Of a stretch of DNA of 37,689 bases, positions 4,683 through 28,320 are shown one piece after another. The notes under the pieces are model-generated. The model searched no databases. It saw nothing but the letters and a program-made list of their open reading frames with translations, and had not been told where the DNA came from. Made by a program: the position numbers and the translations under genes. The DNA comes from Phycisphaerae bacterium (GTDB taxonomy: Bacteria; Planctomycetota; Phycisphaerae; Phycisphaerales; SM1A02). The stretch's first letter is position 1, and every line of letters starts with the position of its first letter. The stretch spans positions 37,417 through 75,105 of the forward strand of contig NZFX01000074.1 of NCBI GenBank assembly GCA_002689385.1, given 5' to 3'.

Positions 4683-5423
4683 GTGCAATTAGTAACACAC
4701 AATCAAAGCGATAATGGGGTTCTGCATATTTCGCTTCATGATGCAAAAAAACGAAATGCATTAGGTACCGAGATGTTTGATGCTCTAGACATTGCAATCA
4801 ACGCAGTGAATGGTAAAACTCGGTGCGTTTTGCTTTGTGGGGAGGGTCCTGCTTTTTGTGGTGGGTTTGACATGAAAGCATGCGTTGATAACCTCGAAAT
4901 TTTAGAAACGTACATCTTGCGTCTAAGCAAACTCATACGTTCATTAAGAAGGTTAGCCATGCCCGTTGTCGTCTGTGCCCATGGCGCCGCAATTGCAGGT
5001 GGGTGCGCACTTCTGACAGGATGCGATTTTGTGGTTGGGTCACTTGACAGTAAGTATGGATACCCAGTGCATCGCATTGGCATTTCACCTGCTGTCACGA
5101 TCCCGACTCTTTTTCAAAAACTCGGCGAGGGGCCTGCTCGAGCACTCGCTCTTGGTGGTGAGATTATCGATGGAGAAAAAGCACTCAATATTGGATTGCT
5201 TACACACCTCGAAGAATCCACAAATTGCGCACGAGCAAAAGCACAAGAACTTGCCGACTCTCTTGCTGCAAAACCGCCCATCGCACTTCAAACAACAAAA
5301 CAATGGCTGAACGAACTTGACGGTTCACTTGACGATGAATTTTTTGATGCGCCGGCAAAACACTCTGCCTCTTCGCTTGGTGAAGAAACAAAAACCCTTC
5401 TCAACAACCTGTGGAAAAAATGA
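4683..5423 (+). CDS. Enoyl-CoA hydratase/isomerase-fold protein, catalytic Glu residues missing
   Basis: 246 aa from the GTG at 4683. The open frame reaches back to 4575, but that start lies inside the preceding terminator, so a downstream start is required; GTG 4683 aligns well with the start of the paralogue at 27527. Crotonase-fold marks are KKRNALGTEMFDAL (22-35), oxyanion-hole CGGFDMK (59-65) and HGAAIAGGCALLTGCDF (100-116). In classical hydratases two glutamates act at GGxE and at the PE motif; here these are Ala109 and Val129 (KYGYPVHRIGISPAV). The C-terminal TTKQWLNELDGSLDDE matches the paralogue. It could use a different reaction of the superfamily or be non-catalytic. It is not in an obvious operon. 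Confidence 0.8.
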   Translation: MQLVTHNQSDNGVLHISLHDAKKRNALGTEMFDALDIAINAVNGKTRCVLLCGEGPAFCGGFDMKACVDNLEILETYILRLSKLIRSLRRLAMPVVVCAHGAAIAGGCALLTGCDFVVGSLDSKYGYPVHRIGISPAVTIPTLFQKLGEGPARALALGGEIIDGEKALNIGLLTHLEESTNCARAKAQELADSLAAKPPIALQTTKQWLNELDGSLDDEFFDAPAKHSASSLGEETKTLLNNLWKK

Positions 5424-15578: not shown

Positions 15579-15657
15579 TACTTGGGAAGTACTACGATTG
15601 AGCAATGAAATATCTCGGCAACCTTCTTTCGCTCGTCACCCTCTTGGTAATTTTTTT

Positions 15658-21042: not shown

Positions 21043-21279
21043 ATGGCAATCCCTCAACCAAAACTTTCAACGTTGCATTGTTGCCCATACATTGAAGATG
21101 GGCACTCCGCTTGTTCAAGTCACTTTACGCTCGGTCGACTTGACCAAGCGTGCAGTGTTTGCTTCGGTTCGTTTAAATCATGCTCGATGTACCGGCAACT
21201 AGCTGGTGTAACTTTTAACACCTCTTTAGATATGACTGTCAATGGCCAAGCCGTCGAACTACGACCAACAGGTTCGTGA
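21043..21279 (+). CDS. Small Cys-rich protein (putative metal-binding), 78 aa
   Basis: Six cysteines in a short span: C13, C14, C24, C37, C40 and C47, in the segments HCCPYIEDGHSAC, then LGRLDQACSVCFGSF, then KSCSMYRQLAG. The pattern CP....C......L......C.x..C resembles small Cys-rich proteins I have seen in planctomycete genomes, suggesting a zinc or iron-sulfur site; no function is known. It lies 51 bp after folA and its end overlaps the recombinase gene by 38 bp, which argues for translational coupling. Confidence 0.55.
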   Translation: MAIPQPKLSTLHCCPYIEDGHSACSSHFTLGRLDQACSVCFGSFKSCSMYRQLAGVTFNTSLDMTVNGQAVELRPTGS

Positions 21280-22159
21280 TTTTTTTGGGTACCTTCGTGT
21301 TGAGGCGGGCTTATCGCCATTGACGCTCGACGCCTATCGACGTGACCTTGAATTATTGCGCGATAGATTAACTGCAGAAAGAATTGTTTGTTGTAGCGAT
21401 GTAACGCCAAAACATCTTGCTGCGCACGTTCGGTATTTACATAAAGACAGAGGATTACAAGCTTCAAGTGTTGCAAGGCATCTTTCGACCATGCGGATGT
21501 TGTTTCGCTATTTGCAGGCATCAAACAAAATAGATTCTGACCCCGCACGATTGTTAGAAACACCAACTCGGTGGAAACGCTTGCCAGATGTTTTGTCTCC
21601 AAAGAAAATGAAACAACTCATAGACGCGGCGAATCCTTCGTACGGAAGGTTGTGGCAACGCGATCGCGCGCTTGTTGAACTCATGTATGCTGGCGGAATG
21701 CGCGCGAGCGAAGTGGCGGGAATTAAGCCGGACGATTTTAAAGAAACACTTGCTGTTGTGATGGTAACGGGCAAGGGGAATAAACAGCGGCTCGTCCCAA
21801 TTGGCAAACCTGCCATCGCAGCTATTCAACAGTACACCGCGGAACTTCGCCCGAAACTTTTGCGCTTTGATGATGGGCGAGACATGGGACATTTGCTTCT
21901 TTCAAACACGGGTCGCCCACTTGAGCGGGTATCTATTTGGCAAATCATTCGCAAACTGGCGAAGAATGCTGACCTTGGAAAAGTGCATCCGCATACGCTT
22001 CGACACAGCTTTGCAACGCACATGCTTTCTGGTGGTGCCGACCTTCGCGTTGTTCAAGAACTTCTTGGACATAGCGATATTGGAACTACTCAAATTTACA
22101 CACACATCGACCGCTCCCAACTTAAATCCGTCGTCGCCAAATACCACCCCAGGCCATAG
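21242..22159 (+). CDS. Tyrosine recombinase XerC/XerD
   Basis: 305 aa. Resolves chromosome dimers at dif together with FtsK. SAM-like core-binding domain about 8-95, catalytic domain about 115-300. All active-site residues are present: R154 (GGMRASE), K178 (TGKGNKQ), H251 and R254 (HTLRHSFATH), H277 (LLGHSDI) and nucleophile Y286 (TQIYTHID). Length and motifs fit a housekeeping XerD more than a phage integrase. Whether it is XerC or XerD needs phylogeny. Its stop is followed by a copy of the 50-bp repeat. Confidence 0.93.
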   Translation: MAKPSNYDQQVRDFFGYLRVEAGLSPLTLDAYRRDLELLRDRLTAERIVCCSDVTPKHLAAHVRYLHKDRGLQASSVARHLSTMRMLFRYLQASNKIDSDPARLLETPTRWKRLPDVLSPKKMKQLIDAANPSYGRLWQRDRALVELMYAGGMRASEVAGIKPDDFKETLAVVMVTGKGNKQRLVPIGKPAIAAIQQYTAELRPKLLRFDDGRDMGHLLLSNTGRPLERVSIWQIIRKLAKNADLGKVHPHTLRHSFATHMLSGGADLRVVQELLGHSDIGTTQIYTHIDRSQLKSVVAKYHPRP

Positions 22160-22170
22160 TCCGCTAAAGC

Positions 22171-22220
22171 AGATTAATTCCCCAGAGACTATTTTTGACT
22201 CAAAAACGGTGTTTTTCGAA
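22171..22220 (+). repeat. 50-bp interspersed repeat, copy 1
   Basis: Identical at 40 of 50 positions, without gaps, to 28271-28320. It begins 12 nt after the recombinase stop. The most conserved parts are TTAATTCC-CAGAGAC and CAAAAA-GGTG-TTTTC. In this copy AAAAAC-GGT-GTTTTT can form a small hairpin. Confidence 0.75.
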
Positions 22221-22243
22221 CAAATTTATTCCTCAGCGGTTTT

Positions 22244-22271
22244 TTGAGATGCTCGATATGTCTCTTAGATA
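22244..22271 (+). promoter_or_regulatory. Possible promoter upstream of the secreted protein gene
   Basis: TTGAGA (22244-22249) and TAGATA (22266-22271) with a 16-bp spacer; the start would lie about 20 nt before the ATG at 22297. Confidence 0.35.
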
Positions 22272-22296
22272 TTTATTTGTTTGATAGAATGAATGC

Positions 22297-23268
22297 ATGA
22301 GCATTGGGTTAATATTGGTAGCGATAGTGAGTATTTCGGGAAGCGGAACAATGCAGCCAATATGCACGCAAGAAGATTTTCAGTTGTCAATTGGTAATTC
22401 AACTCAAGGAGATACCGCATTTATAGCCCAAGCTGTATTTGATGATTATCTTGAACAGCTCATCACCCTAGAGCAAGAATACTCACGCGAAGACGATATG
22501 GATACGCCCCCTGCAGGGGATCTAATGCAACAACTTAGCAAAGAGCAGGCTGGTGATGATTTGTTCGATACTTTGCTTTCTTCTCTGGCAGCACTCAACG
22601 AAGGTCCACAATGGAAAATCAGCATCGCCAATCTTCGAAGAACGGTGCTGCTTCGAGCTCGGGAAGCGAAGAATCCGTGGCAAGGCGTAGTTTGGTTGGA
22701 CATTTCAAACATGCCGGCAGATGCAGTGGTTCGGGTCGATTTATTTTTGCAAAACAATATAGACGAAGACCGCACAGACAGGTACTACGGCATCGCCATG
22801 CAAACATTGGGTGATAGTGAGAAATGCAGAACGTTTGAAAAACAAGCAATGCAACGTTGGGGTACATTTCTTAAACTCATAACTCCATACCTAAACGAAA
22901 AGATAATAGTTCATCTCTACCCACAAATCGACCGGGGCAAACATGTACACCGTGTAAAAGACTGGATAACAACGCATATCCAAGATGAAGACACCCTTGC
23001 AAGTGCTCGCCAACAGTTTAAACTTTGGAACTCGTTGCATGAAAAATTAAACCAGACTATCGTTGAACTTGTCGTACGCGCTAGAAGTGAGTTAGGTTTC
23101 GACCCATGGTCGCGTGGCTGTGGTCAACCAGTTGGTTCTTTAGCGTACAAACTCAAAAATGAATTGTTACAAAAAAGTGCTGAAATCCAAGAGTTTAACA
23201 ACACAACCACCCACTTGATTTTACATCTTCTAACGCAAAAACAACGTCAACAGTTTGAAGAAGAATAA
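22297..23268 (+). CDS. Hypothetical secreted protein, 323 aa
   Basis: Not recognised. A short hydrophobic N-terminus (MSIGLILVAIVSISGSG) looks like a signal peptide. The rest is mostly helical and charged, with a beta-like central part (GVVWLDISNMPADAVVRVDL, 128-147) and a C-terminal helix rich in Gln and Glu. Cys residues occur at about 23, 177 and 267. Its 3' end overlaps the convergent dus gene by 22 bp. It stands alone between the recombinase and the dus operon. Confidence 0.6.
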   Translation: MSIGLILVAIVSISGSGTMQPICTQEDFQLSIGNSTQGDTAFIAQAVFDDYLEQLITLEQEYSREDDMDTPPAGDLMQQLSKEQAGDDLFDTLLSSLAALNEGPQWKISIANLRRTVLLRAREAKNPWQGVVWLDISNMPADAVVRVDLFLQNNIDEDRTDRYYGIAMQTLGDSEKCRTFEKQAMQRWGTFLKLITPYLNEKIIVHLYPQIDRGKHVHRVKDWITTHIQDEDTLASARQQFKLWNSLHEKLNQTIVELVVRARSELGFDPWSRGCGQPVGSLAYKLKNELLQKSAEIQEFNNTTTHLILHLLTQKQRQQFEEE

Positions 23269-24365
23269 AATTCTTCAATCACTGTTTTCCACTCTTCAAT
23301 TGACTGTGACTGAATAAACTGCTTACGCACGTTTTCCGATTCTGGATGGTACTTAGAAAACTGAATTCCAAATTTCCTCATTAGCCGGGAGCCCTTTTTT
23401 TCTCCGTGCAATTGTGTACATAGTGCGATATGGCCCAGCAATGCCGTACGTTGTTGCAAAACCGTTGGCGGCAACGGTGATTTTCCCGACATTAGGGCGC
23501 GCGCTTGATTAAATATCCAGGGATTACCAATACAACCACGCGCAATAGAAACTCCGTGCACACCCGTTTGTTCCATCATTCGAAAAATATCGGCGGCGCA
23601 CCAAATGTCACCACTTCCAAAAACAAGTGCATCTGGCCGGCGTGTTGTTAACTCTTTTAAGAATGACCAATCAGAAGGGCCAATATACCGTTGCTCGACC
23701 GTTCGTGAATGCACCGTTGCCCAACTGAAACCCGTTTCGTATGCGTGGTCAAAAACTGCATAAAAATTCTCTGACGACTCAACTGTGTCATCCCAACCAC
23801 GTCGAAGTTTTACGGTTACTGGGATATGTTCGGGTACAGATTCGCGAACTGCAGTCAACACTTCTTTCGCTTGACATGGTGCTGTTAAAAAATGCCCACC
23901 GCGATTTCGTCTACGTACTTTTTTAACTGGGCAAGCAAGGTTTACATCAATAACCTCATACCCCATTCCCGCAAGAATAAGTGCTCCCTTTGCCATCTCG
24001 TCTGGATTAGTTCCAATCACTTGCCCCGCTATTGGGTGGTCGTCCAAGCCGGCTGCTGTGTTCCCTTCGATTTCACCCGCCTCCTCTGCGAGTAAATCTG
24101 GATCTTCTTTTCTTCGACCTTTTCCGCCATTTATGAGTGTGCGATCAAGCAACGCTTCAGTGACACAAAATGGGCAGCCGTGCTGGCGTGCAATCAATCG
24201 CATGGCGCCATCGCTGTATCCGGCCAAGCCGGCTTGATAAAACGGAACATCAAACCCCTTAACAAGCGCTGGAATTCTTGGATCAATCAGAAGATTATTT
24301 GCAAACTCTGCAATGTCAGCATGTGACACATCGCTTAGTTGCGAAGGGTTCATATTGACCGACAT
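23247..24365 (-). CDS. tRNA-dihydrouridine synthase
   Basis: 372 aa. FMN enzyme that reduces uridines in the tRNA D-loop. TIM-barrel with QAGLAGYSDGAMR near the start of the barrel, DVNLACPVKKV (140-150; catalytic Cys145), VKLRRGWDD, the His motif VHSRTVEQRY, and GSGDIWCAADI then IARGCIGNPWIF for FMN phosphate. It is closest in pattern to DusB-type enzymes, but the subtype is not certain. Last gene of the minus-strand operon, 3 nt after the lipoprotein gene. Confidence 0.92.
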   Translation of the reverse strand: MSVNMNPSQLSDVSHADIAEFANNLLIDPRIPALVKGFDVPFYQAGLAGYSDGAMRLIARQHGCPFCVTEALLDRTLINGGKGRRKEDPDLLAEEAGEIEGNTAAGLDDHPIAGQVIGTNPDEMAKGALILAGMGYEVIDVNLACPVKKVRRRNRGGHFLTAPCQAKEVLTAVRESVPEHIPVTVKLRRGWDDTVESSENFYAVFDHAYETGFSWATVHSRTVEQRYIGPSDWSFLKELTTRRPDALVFGSGDIWCAADIFRMMEQTGVHGVSIARGCIGNPWIFNQARALMSGKSPLPPTVLQQRTALLGHIALCTQLHGEKKGSRLMRKFGIQFSKYHPESENVRKQFIQSQSIEEWKTVIEEFYSSSNC

Positions 24366-24368
24366 GTT

Positions 24369-24782
24369 TTAATCCTGTTGACCAATGACAATTAACCCCA
24401 CCAGAGGGTTGTCGTCTGAAATTTGCAACTCGGCAATGACTAATGGCGTTGGCTCGTCTGTTCTCCAGATGCCACCAGCATTAAACTGCTCTCCGAACGA
24501 ATCTCGAAGTGACCAAAGATTAACTCGCATTGTTTGACCAGCAAGAAGTGGCGCTAGTTTTGCTGAGTATCTTTGGTTCACCCAAAGTATTGCGGTGTTG
24601 TAATCATCTGCAGTGCTGTTGACTATTTTTACAAACTCTTCATCACGAATAACCTGGATTGGTACAGAGTTCGAAACATGCAGCCCCATCGGATATGGGA
24701 CAGAGGCAAGTTCCGGATTGCCTGATGGGTTTTGGCAAGCGAAAAGAAAAAGCGAGACTGTGCTAACGAGTAATAATTTCAT
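24369..24782 (-). CDS. Small lipoprotein, 137 aa
   Basis: Function unknown. MKLLLVSTVSLFLFAC is a lipoprotein signal with Cys16 as the lipidated residue. After a short linker comes a beta-rich domain (GLHVSNSVPIQVIRDEE, TMRVNLWSLRDSFGEQF, TPLVIAELQISDDNPLVGL). It sits 2 nt after trpS and 3 nt before dus, so it is clearly in the same operon, yet has no obvious link to tRNA. No named family recognised. Confidence 0.7.
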   Translation of the reverse strand: MKLLLVSTVSLFLFACQNPSGNPELASVPYPMGLHVSNSVPIQVIRDEEFVKIVNSTADDYNTAILWVNQRYSAKLAPLLAGQTMRVNLWSLRDSFGEQFNAGGIWRTDEPTPLVIAELQISDDNPLVGLIVIGQQD

Positions 24783-24784
24783 AG

Positions 24785-25852
24785 TTATTCTCCGAAGGAA
24801 ATCGATCGATTAAAGAATCCTAGTCCACATGCTTCTTTTGCCATGGCGAGAGTTTCTTCTGTTTTTACATTTGCTCTAGCGGTGCCGTCGCGAACAATAT
24901 CAATGATTGTGTCATCATCGCCCTCGTACTCTGCCCTTCGCTCTTGCATTGGTGTGAGTAACTCGCTGATTGATTCCGCTATCTCGACTTTAATATGCCC
25001 GTCGCCGATGTTATCGCCGCGAACATATTTGTCTTTTAGTTCTGCCGAACGCTCTTTGTCTTTAATAAAAATATCAACGTATTGCATCAGTGGGCTGTCT
25101 GGATCACCGGGGTCTGTCATTGATTGACGACCTGTATACAGTTGACCAAGTTTCTTTTTAACTTTTTTTGGAGTGTCAGTTATAAGAATCGCGTTGTTCA
25201 ATGACTTGCTCATTTTATTCACGCCGTCTGTTCCCATAAGTTTTCCAACCTTGCCTACATCTGCGCGGGGAATTGGAAATACGCCTTTTTCTTCCATGAT
25301 TGGATCGTCGTCTTCAACGTTGTCGTCAATGCCGCAATACAGTTTGTTAAACCGCCTTGCAACTTCGCGTGTAAGTTCAATGTGTGGCACTTGGTCCTCG
25401 CCAACTGGAACGGCATGCGCACGGAACGCGAGGATGTCCGCAGTTTGACCTACCGCATATAACGGAAAACCAAAACTGTAATTTTCCCCAAGGCCCTTCA
25501 CTTTTATTTCTTCTTTAAGGGTTGGGTTTCGCATCACACGATTAAACGGCAACAACATTGCAAACAAAAAAGTAAGTTCCGCAATTGCGGGAACTTCAGA
25601 CTGCAACGTGATTGCGGCTTTGCTTGGGTCAATTCCCATTGCCAAATAATCGCGAACAATTTCAAGCGTGTCTGCATGAATTTCATCTGGTGTGTCAGAA
25701 CGCGTTGTGTATGCGTGCATGTTTGCAAGCAAGAAATAACAATCATGCGTTTCTTGCAACTCGACTCGCCTCTGAACCGAACCAAAATAGTGACCAAGGT
25801 GCAACTGCCCAGTTGGGGTGTCGCCTGTAAGAATGACTTCGCGTGTGCTCAT
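24785..25852 (-). CDS. trpS: Tryptophanyl-tRNA synthetase
   Basis: 355 aa. Charges tRNA-Trp. Class Ic signatures: the HIGH equivalent TGQLHLGHYFGS (14-25) and KMSKS (213-217). PVGEDQVPHIELTREVARRF is the conserved tryptophan and ATP pocket region. The start overlaps the stop of the upstream CPBP gene as ATGA, so translation is coupled. Confidence 0.97.
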   Translation of the reverse strand: MSTREVILTGDTPTGQLHLGHYFGSVQRRVELQETHDCYFLLANMHAYTTRSDTPDEIHADTLEIVRDYLAMGIDPSKAAITLQSEVPAIAELTFLFAMLLPFNRVMRNPTLKEEIKVKGLGENYSFGFPLYAVGQTADILAFRAHAVPVGEDQVPHIELTREVARRFNKLYCGIDDNVEDDDPIMEEKGVFPIPRADVGKVGKLMGTDGVNKMSKSLNNAILITDTPKKVKKKLGQLYTGRQSMTDPGDPDSPLMQYVDIFIKDKERSAELKDKYVRGDNIGDGHIKVEIAESISELLTPMQERRAEYEGDDDTIIDIVRDGTARANVKTEETLAMAKEACGLGFFNRSISFGE

Positions 25853-26691
25853 ATCTTCGTACTGTAAACAAATGCGATATTCATTGCGTTAAAAATTATG
25901 TGAATGAGTACCGGAGCAAGCACGCCGCCGCTTTTTACTCGTGCCCAACAGAGTCCAACAGAGAGGATAAAGAGCCCAATGATTGCCGATGGTTGCGCTG
26001 CTCCGATGTGCATAATGGCAAAAAGTGCACTTGTTGCATACATTGCTCGCCAGACCGACTTCCCACCAAATACCGCGACAAATGTTGGCAAAAGAAGACC
26101 GCGGTACATCACTTCTTCAAAAATACCTGCCCCAATAGTCACGCAGACAATCACAACCCATGTTGCAGAAGACCAGGGTGTGTGAACAATTTGCTCGAGC
26201 GTCTTATGCCCAATATCTGTTGGTGATTCAAGCCCAAGCCTAGCAAAAAGGATATGAGCAAGCCCCGCAACTGCAAGGGTTAGGGGCACAAACACCATGA
26301 ACGCGATGACAGAAACGGGCAAAATGTGTCTAGAGCTGCATTTTCTGCGAAATTTCGCATACAGCAATACGACTGGAATTTGTGCCGCCATCGATGAGCC
26401 AATCATCCACGCAGTGCCAACAATCGTGCTTTGTTGCTCTGGTACGTGATTAAACCCCCACCAGCCACCTATGCCAGCAAGGATAAACATGGCACCGCAG
26501 AGCAAAATTGCCATAGTTGGAGTGATGGCTGGATCAAGATACCCACGGTGCGGAAGGTTTGCGTGTCCAGACTTTACGAACCAAACTCCGATAGCCATGG
26601 AGAAGAGTGTTAGAAGTAGGGTTACTAAATCAATGGAAGGCACTTCCACAAACTGAGCTTCTTCGCTACCCTTGGCAATTGATGAACACAT
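25849..26691 (-). CDS. CPBP family intramembrane metalloprotease (CAAX-like)
   Basis: 280 aa from the ATG at 26691. The open frame reaches 27000 but that part is antisense to trpC. Multi-pass membrane protein with the ABI/CPBP motifs: EEVMYRG (E202, E203, R207), FAIMH (H238) and HIIFN (H274, N278). These Glu and His residues coordinate the metal in the Rce1-type family. Its role in bacteria is usually unknown. It is first in a minus-strand operon with trpS, a lipoprotein and dus. Its start codon overlaps the trpC start codon (shared CATG at 26689-26692). Confidence 0.85.
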   Translation of the reverse strand: MCSSIAKGSEEAQFVEVPSIDLVTLLLTLFSMAIGVWFVKSGHANLPHRGYLDPAITPTMAILLCGAMFILAGIGGWWGFNHVPEQQSTIVGTAWMIGSSMAAQIPVVLLYAKFRRKCSSRHILPVSVIAFMVFVPLTLAVAGLAHILFARLGLESPTDIGHKTLEQIVHTPWSSATWVVIVCVTIGAGIFEEVMYRGLLLPTFVAVFGGKSVWRAMYATSALFAIMHIGAAQPSAIIGLFILSVGLCWARVKSGGVLAPVLIHIIFNAMNIAFVYSTKI

Positions 26692-27508
26692 GACGATTAC
26701 ACTAAGCGATATTACAAAATACAAACGCGACGAAGTTGCGGCTCTTTGTAAAGAGAAGCCCGTCGAGGAAGTACGCGCCTTGGCAGAATCTGCTGATAAA
26801 CCGCGTAACTTTTTTGGTGCGGTGGTTAACGGGCACACCAAGCGAAGTACAAGTGTAATCGCCGAGGTAAAATACAAGAGTCCCTCAGCTGGAATCATAC
26901 GAGAAGATTTTGATCCTGTTGCCATTGCTAAAGCGTACGAGAAGGCGGGGGCTGCCGCCATCTCTTGTTTGACAGATACGCATTTTTTTGGAGGAAACAT
27001 TGATTTTATTCCTCAAATTCGCAGCGCGGTGGGCTTACCTGTCCTGCGGAAGGATTTTGTCGTTGATGCATATCAAATTTGGGAGGCTCGAGCTGCTGGT
27101 GCGGATGCCCTCTTGCTCATTTCTGAAGTGCTCTCTGAGGGGCAGTTGGTCGACTATATGATTCTTGCCCAGGAGCTTGAGATGACAACGCTTGTCGAAG
27201 CGCACGATATGGGAAATTTGTTAAAAATACAGCAATATGTGGGTTTTCCGCATGCAGGGTATTGTTTGCTCGGAATTAACAATCGTAATCTTGAAACGAT
27301 GAAAACGGATATCAAACACACGGTTCGGATGGTTGATGTCATTGATGACACATCGACCGTTGTGAGCGAATCTGGAATTACTGCACCCGAAGACCTTGAT
27401 ACATTGCGGTCACACGGTGTTCATATCGTGCTTGTTGGTGAATCGCTCATGAGAGAGTCTGACCCAGGAGAGGCACTGGCTAAACTGATCCGCATGAATC
27501 CATCGTAA
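26690..27508 (+). CDS. trpC: Indole-3-glycerol phosphate synthase TrpC
   Basis: 272 aa from the ATG at 26690; a TTG at 26672 is the only longer start. Closes the indole ring in tryptophan synthesis. TIM-barrel with the family motifs IAEVKYKSPSAG (57-68, catalytic Glu and Lys), CLTDTHFFGG (93-102), VLRKDFVVDAYQI (118-130), TLVEAHD, LGINNRNLETMKTD, VVSESGI and VLVGESLMR. No other trp genes are adjacent, although trpS is divergent upstream. Confidence 0.96.
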   Translation: MTITLSDITKYKRDEVAALCKEKPVEEVRALAESADKPRNFFGAVVNGHTKRSTSVIAEVKYKSPSAGIIREDFDPVAIAKAYEKAGAAAISCLTDTHFFGGNIDFIPQIRSAVGLPVLRKDFVVDAYQIWEARAAGADALLLISEVLSEGQLVDYMILAQELEMTTLVEAHDMGNLLKIQQYVGFPHAGYCLLGINNRNLETMKTDIKHTVRMVDVIDDTSTVVSESGITAPEDLDTLRSHGVHIVLVGESLMRESDPGEALAKLIRMNPS

Positions 27509-27526
27509 AAAAGTTAGGGTATACAC

Positions 27527-28264
27527 ATGATTCAAATTACAGAACAACAAAACATTGTCACAGTTACGCTCGACCGAGCAAAAAAACATAACGCCCTTTC
27601 AGCTGAATTAATTGATGCGCTGCATAATGGACTCGATGAAATAGAACAACACAAGGACATGCGGTGCATGGTACTCGCGGGCAACGGTCGTTCATTTTGT
27701 GCAGGAATGGATCTAAAGGGTGTTATTGATGACCCCCAAGCAATGGGAGCAATGTTACAAGGACTCGCAAGGGTTTCTCGGCGGATTCGTAATCTTCCGG
27801 TACCCACGATTGCTCGTATTCAGGGCGCCGCTGTTGGGGGTGGTTGTGGCCTAATGGTTGTGTGTGATTTTGCGTTTACGCATCCTGAGTCGAAGGTTGG
27901 ATATCCAGAAGTTGACCTTGGTGTTTGCCCCGCTGTTGTGGCGCCGTGGCTCATTAAAAAACTTGGTGCTGGAAAAGCTCGAGCCATGTTGCTTGCTGGT
28001 GGGACAATGAGCGGAGAACAGGGCTTTAAAGCTGGTTTAGCAACACATTTGTGTGAATTGGAAGACTTACCCACTGCGGTCACTGATTTTGCTGAAAATC
28101 TCGCCAAGGGCGGTAAAAATGCGCTCGCCACGACAAAACGATGGCTAAATGAGCTTGACGGCTCTTTAAACGACGATATTTTACAAAAAGGCGCCGATTT
28201 ATCTGCCAAAATCATTGCTGGCGATGAGGCCCAGGCCCGCTTAGGTCCTCTGTACGCAAAGTAG
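27527..28264 (+). CDS. Enoyl-CoA hydratase/isomerase, methylglutaconyl-CoA hydratase (LiuC)-like
   Basis: 245 aa. Crotonase-fold enzyme with KKHNALSAELIDAL (19-32), FCAGMDLKG oxyanion hole (57-65), GAAVGGGCGLMVVCDF (100-115). The first catalytic Glu position is Gly108, while the second, Glu128 (VGYPEVDLGVCPAVVAP), is present. This pattern, and the CPAVVAP segment, resemble LiuC/AtuE-type methylglutaconyl-CoA hydratases of leucine and isoprenoid breakdown; the match is from memory. It is a paralogue of the gene at 4683. It follows trpC by 18 bp. Confidence 0.8.
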   Translation: MIQITEQQNIVTVTLDRAKKHNALSAELIDALHNGLDEIEQHKDMRCMVLAGNGRSFCAGMDLKGVIDDPQAMGAMLQGLARVSRRIRNLPVPTIARIQGAAVGGGCGLMVVCDFAFTHPESKVGYPEVDLGVCPAVVAPWLIKKLGAGKARAMLLAGGTMSGEQGFKAGLATHLCELEDLPTAVTDFAENLAKGGKNALATTKRWLNELDGSLNDDILQKGADLSAKIIAGDEAQARLGPLYAK

Positions 28265-28270
28265 CGATTT

Positions 28271-28320
28271 AAATTAATTCCTCAGAGACGATTATTGGGC
28301 CAAAAAGGGTGGTTTTCTAA
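28271..28320 (+). repeat. 50-bp interspersed repeat, copy 2
   Basis: 40 of 50 positions identical to 22171-22220. It starts 6 nt after the stop of the LiuC-like gene. The first 30 bp are the best conserved. Confidence 0.75.

Follow-up and report, generated by a model that had tools for sequence, protein, structure and literature searches.

REPINs, as described in part of PMC3116915, are built with conserved inverted ends and with a middle that is constrained in its length and in its hairpin capacity, and REPIN singlets are read as remnants in parts of PMC3116915 and PMC8049555. A related arrangement is that of the TIRYT (TIRtrons), which the portion of PMC3733652 drawn on here describes as RAYT-like transposases with flanking repeats that have no relation to the GTAG REPs; according to the same portion, TIR repeats form moderately abundant families, many of them present as dimers or clusters, and the ends of GTAG REPs can provide the stop codon (TAG) of a gene.

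The repeats described in this study are most probably decayed members of a REP/REPIN-type (or TIR/TIRYT-type) mobile repeat family, whose transposase has been lost or was left unassembled. In common with REPINs and their RAYT transposases, a short unit lies between genes in inverted pairs, the pairs that were folded form hairpins as single-stranded DNA (ssDNA), and a Y1/RAYT-type gene lies beside one copy in the genome of a sister species (G008). Further, the elements of this sister genome resemble REPINs in that their ends are constant, while their middle varies in sequence at a fixed length. Unlike REPINs, no GTAG tag was seen and extra internal units occur in the G008 elements; unlike the REPIN and RAYT combination, the transposase was not found in the repeats' own genome (G000).

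In the window, by which we mean the whole analyzed stretch of 37,689 nucleotides, self-comparison showed positions 22171-22220 and 28271-28320 to be identical at 40 of 50 bases without gaps, exactly as the initial annotation had placed them, and ranked them as the top-scoring direct 50-base pair. The features concerned are the following:

21242..22159, + strand: XerC/D-type tyrosine recombinase gene preceding copy 1, given as context
22171..22220, + strand: repeat copy 1, core at 22173-22189, ATTAATTCCCCAGAGAC
22224..22240, + strand: possible decayed direct core copy with 4 mismatches, at offset 51 relative to copy 1; weak alone
22260..22276, - strand: possible decayed inverted core copy, 4 mismatches, offset 87; weak alone
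27527..28264, + strand: enoyl-CoA hydratase/isomerase gene preceding copy 2, given as context
28271..28320, + strand: repeat copy 2, core at 28273-28289, ATTAATTCCTCAGAGAC, exact consensus

As the two open reading frames end at 22159 and 28264, the gap from stop codon to repeat is 11 and 6 bases, respectively, in agreement with the distance of 6-12 nt given earlier. In 40 windows generated by a first-order Markov model, the highest-scoring pair reached only 31-34 of 50, and under an independent-base model the expected number of pairs with at least 40 of 50 was 4.5e-7. Chance as the origin of the pair was ruled out by the Markov windows together with the genomic copy counts; the annotation had named a lack of further copies and a chance level of identity as the outcomes that would speak against its proposal, and neither occurred. 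Copy 1 is possibly a decayed cluster in its own right, composed of the forward core at 22173, the direct copy at 22224 and the inverted copy at 22260. Since 9 sites with exactly 4 mismatches were seen against ~3 expected by chance in 137.6 kb examined, a lone site of this kind is weak evidence.

With up to two mismatches, the core ATTAATTCCYCAGAGAC was located at 43 sites in the 1.94-Mb genome of the window's species (an assembly of 87 contigs, 97.9% complete and with 2.8% contamination), and the reversed control gave none. In the stack of 43 copies, the left edge was sharp and the 17-base core was followed by a T tract, with weak similarity beyond it; the left flank of the core was almost unconserved, and the sharply conserved part of the 50-base match comprised the first ~17-25 bases only. 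In the 137.6 kb examined with a simple ORF caller, 49 of 50 sites (up to three mismatches) were intergenic, despite a coding fraction of 81%. The 43 sites stood in tandem (18), convergent (12) and divergent (10) gene contexts, the remaining three, which fall within a predicted gene or at the end of a contig, being left out of the orientation and stop-codon counts. Adjacent cores no more than 200 nt apart formed 9 pairs against ~1-1.8 expected, and 9 inverted, 10 direct and 3 everted pairs were counted when a partner with up to four mismatches was allowed.

These intergenic arrays of short units in both orientations are reminiscent of GTAG REPs and BIMEs. The unit differs from those in its sequence, and inspection of the family consensus showed no tetranucleotide tag such as GTAG and no palindrome or stem-loop inside a single unit; therefore, it is not a classical GTAG REP. 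None of the papers listed in a search for GGGGTCAGACCCC-like strings appeared relevant from its title or abstract, and the exact 10-mer CTCAGAGACG, with 13 matches in its own genome and 2 in the reversed control, was too short to be informative. The clustered units were not better conserved than the singlets, with mean mismatches of 1.15 for 27 clustered units and 0.75 for 16 singlets (p 0.13), unlike the REPINs in the part of PMC3116915 that reports doublets to be the better conserved. This result is evidence against a REPIN population that is still active; a population no longer copied would fit it.

The family is almost confined to the window's species. The core pattern was present in 8 of 181 genomes of the taxonomic family (43 sites in the own genome, 2 in G008 and one each in six more) and absent from 173; among the 12 other genomes of the same genus, with up to two mismatches, 11 had none and the twelfth had two. 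The looser unit pattern TCCTCWGAGACNTTTT with one mismatch gave 28 matches in the own genome, 84 in G008, 3 in G006 and one each in G009 and G004, and was absent from the other 8 of 13 same-genus genomes. As its reversed controls gave 1-2 matches in five genomes without a match (and 0 in G000 and G008), the single matches mean little. The kinship with G008 extends beyond the core, since the flank GATTTTTGGGCTAAAA of the G008 units is common to both genomes; copy 2 has GATTATTGGGCCAAAA at the place of GATTTTTGGGCTAAAA, and its core is followed by GATTATTGGGCCAAAAAG, which is similar to the G008 unit flank. When 14 distinct 20-base G008 flanks were scored with a matrix from the own genome, separately from the core and in a register set by eye beforehand, they averaged 12.3 bits against -5.8 for shuffles, and none of 2000 shuffles reached this value.

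The 84 matches in the whole G008 genome (~1.9 Mb) fell into 30 clusters. An inverted pair at an offset of exactly 81, which corresponds to 95 bp from core to core, was present in 18 of the 30 clusters, which comprised 57 of the 84 matches; this count is free of any choice by offset, as it was taken from all matches. For the comparison of the elements themselves, 18 distinct elements (16 at offset 81) were used, from stretches picked partly for showing that offset, and letter by letter the 16 were 99% identical in their left ends, 93% in their right ends and 50% in a 28-base middle. The core-to-core length was exactly 95 bp despite this variable middle. The hairpin ends are CCTCTGAGAC and CCTCAGAGAC, and internal cores lie at offsets of 21 and 51, or in mirror image at 30 and 60. 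This architecture resembles the REPIN design set out in the consulted part of PMC3116915.

Folding as ssDNA gave z-scores of -11.9 and -6.3 for the two inverted pairs folded from the own genome (contigs C38 and C9, respectively), and of -7.5 and -5.4 for two G008 elements. The stretches of the two window copies showed no fold (z -1.1 and +1.5), and on this account the window copies alone are neither hairpins nor intrinsic terminators.

One of the G008 elements adjoins a transposase gene:

G008:C232:689-785: G008 element just upstream of the transposase gene; the transposase match starts at 838

The product of this gene matched Pfam Y1_Tnp with 51 bits and the NCBIfam model REP_Tyr_transpos (REP-associated tyrosine transposase) with 66.8 bits, below the cut-off of 80. 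By eye, the protein carries a PNHWH motif and a Tyr within NYLAMNP, which we take to be the catalytic residues. As ~30 clusters are spread over 1.9 Mb, an element beside this gene is possible by chance, and no element was seen in the 250 bases that follow the gene. A TIR/TIRYT gene is RAYT-like, with HUH and Tyr, and has inverted repeats on its flanks; at G008:C232, the repeat was seen on the upstream side only.

Y1_Tnp genes were found in 4 of 13 genomes of the genus, 10 genes in all. G000 is not among these genomes; it had no Y1_Tnp match, and the G008 transposase protein gave no match in it at E values up to 1. A transposase gene lying among repeats could have escaped the assembly, as it is in 87 contigs. 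Because the own genome shows no such transposase, we infer the cognate enzyme from the sister species. An 11-mer repeated at least three times occurred in the flanks of 9 of 10 Y1 genes as compared with 32 of 373 control ORFs (p 7e-9), the flanks being 500 nt per side of the matched part (276 for one gene only) and the controls being ORFs of at least 180 aa. Since these controls were drawn partly from contigs chosen for carrying such repeats, the test is conservative.

A transposase search in 400 genomes of the order gave a match in 53, and among 24 inspected transposase loci (10 of the same genus and 14 others) the exact CCTCWGAGAC core was found only at G008:C232. The flanks GGGGACAG and GGGGTCAG of some relatives fit the GGGGWSAS motif that part of PMC3733652 gives for TIR repeats. 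The CCTCWGAGAC unit does not fit this motif, and unlike the TIR systems its own genome has the repeat with the transposase not found.

We also considered whether the transposase-flank repeats dominate the sampled DNA of each transposase-bearing genome, and after the vicinity of the genes was masked this held for G011 only. In the G006 and G007 samples, the flank repeats disappeared from the top k-mers once the transposase vicinity was masked, so abundance elsewhere is not shown for every flank repeat; repeats of the G006 and G007 flank kinds do occur, in both genomes, in the intergenic region at the hydratase gene. As the large G008 sample consisted of contigs already known to carry the repeat, and 20 kb chosen beforehand had no such repeat, the G008 evidence is restricted to the whole-genome match list. 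A separate observation concerns AACTCACCCCCGGTGAGTT, which is repeated in the sampled G011 DNA and flanks a Y1 gene in G008:C131, with no copy in the other 152 kb of G008 sampled. Since this repeat recurs in G011 and its Y1 gene is in G008, the distributions of repeat and transposase are not coincident.

In the proposed mechanism, the living form would be that of G008, in which copies of a short unit bound a ~95-bp element at both ends in inverted orientation. Such an element is predicted to fold to a hairpin as ssDNA and would presumably be copied by a Y1 transposase (HUH/tyrosine, IS200-like, RAYT-type) whose gene adjoins one of the copies. The ~43 units of the window's genome would be remnants, some of them single and others in pairs or small clusters, at irregular spacing. 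We infer that the transposase moves the element, and the window's species presumably once had such an enzyme. The suggestion of a mobile miniature element, one of three in the initial annotation, is accordingly the one that gained support, from the many intergenic copies, the inverted pairs and the near restriction to one species, as well as from the sister species, where a homologous element of REPIN-like form adjoins a gene for a Y1 transposase.

Inverted terminal repeats around a variable inside are also what the ends of a conventional DDE insertion sequence, or its MITEs, would show. However, no cores facing each other (F..R) at 0.7-3 kb were seen by eye among the 43 sites, the G008 relative adjoins a gene of the Y1 class, and the G008 elements contain internal units of ~30 bp, which are unusual for MITEs. 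We therefore regard a DDE origin as very unlikely.

The position behind genes raises the question of whether the units act as transcription terminators or as 3'-end RNA elements for the preceding genes, both of which had been suggested earlier. Sites in the sense orientation that start within 15 nt after a stop codon numbered 8 of 40 against a null of 2.0, a count reached in 0 of 2000 randomizations, although the eight include both window copies that raised the question. The strong hairpins of the two inverted pairs could likewise be read in this sense. Against it, neither window copy folds, 10 of the 40 scorable copies lie in divergent regions, and the core is missing from 11 of 12 other same-genus genomes, though most of them have both genes. 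Further, a promoter/terminator scan detected no terminator-like site (GC-rich hairpin plus T run) at either window copy, and no Rfam family reached its gathering score in the window. The idea of a 3'-end RNA element or a conserved terminator thus lost ground, and we consider it even less likely than a DDE origin. What stands of the link to stop codons is the excess just behind them in the sense orientation, with most copies situated elsewhere.

In three of the 40 copies (C34:55118, C51:5568 and C66:30762 of G000), the repeat itself gives the TAA stop of the upstream gene. A unit end that can serve as a stop codon is thus a trait common to this family and the GTAG REPs, although the codon is TAG in the latter, as far as the part of PMC3733652 treats it. 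Paired geometry, with the outer end toward the nearer gene, was tried as a cause of the orientation preference and failed (23 of 40).

Binding by a chromosomal protein, or use as a DNA-uptake signal, could account for the sharply conserved 17-base core with its almost unconserved left flank and for the G008 offsets of 21, 51 and 81 near whole helical turns, but this is the least likely reading, because the ~43 copies are clustered, nearly all intergenic and almost absent from the sister species, and known uptake signals are far denser and present in genes too.

We also compared the two intergenic regions with their orthologues. The relatives of the hydratase (45 loci) belong mainly to MAGs of Phycisphaerae and other Planctomycetota, with a few others. 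Other repeats occupy the two regions in the relatives: G008 has GGAGTCTGACCCC, G006 has GGGGACAGTCCCC and CACAGAGGT types, G011 has AACTCACCCCCGGTGAG, and G010 and G007 have GGGTCTGAC types. Several of these match the repeats flanking Y1 genes. We also observed, after the recombinase gene in G006:C76, CCTCAGAGG/CACAGAGGT units in an array; they resemble the present core, to which CCTCAGAGG may or may not be akin. In G005:C96, near a contig end, a GCGTATATT-type repeat follows the hydratase gene and apparently extends it.

Repeat-dense regions made up 8 of 23 orthologous regions and 2 of 65 background regions (p 2e-4), in a comparison that is post hoc and has a small background. The count of 23 drops the xerC region of G002, where the contig ends after 4 bases, has no hydratase region for G011, in which the orthologue was not found, and takes in both hydratase paralogues of G005 as well as regions cut by contig ends; two regions below 60 nt and one above 400 nt are included, although the background covers 60-400 nt. 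The number of bases after the recombinase gene was 140 in G000, 69 in G009, 68 in G001, 161 in G004 and 257 in G008, and after the hydratase gene 199 in G000, 162 in both G009 and G001, and 198 in G004. The notion that short orthologous regions are empty sites was dropped, because the regions of G009 and G001 are shorter whereas those of G004 and further genomes are not. Neither an insertion event nor an exact empty site was demonstrated in the orthologous regions, and the lengths are not decisive.

Speculatively, different species of this genus might fill the same intergenic slots anew with unrelated repeats linked to transposases, with an orphan unit kept in the window's species, partly at the 3' ends of genes, after loss of the transposase; such "dialects" would be swapped where they are needed or tolerated, and a host function is conceivable. 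We hold this scenario to be doubtful.

The present data add a transposase-linked repeat family to the marine Phycisphaerales; no earlier description of such a family in this group was seen among the papers listed in a literature search that covered few subscription journals. The worn repeats of G000, where the transposase was not found, and the regular ones of the transposase-bearing G008 offer a natural comparison for the fate of REPINs after RAYT loss. In addition, elements of constant length with variable middles make the REPIN length constraint examinable outside Pseudomonas.

Two further matches were observed within the window. A second direct pair, with 38 of 50 bases identical at 5295 and 28133, lies within or close to two enoyl-CoA hydratase paralogues with 39% protein identity and probably reflects no more than that paralogy. 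In addition, the sequence at position 15645 has an inverted match of 38 of 50 bases elsewhere in the window.
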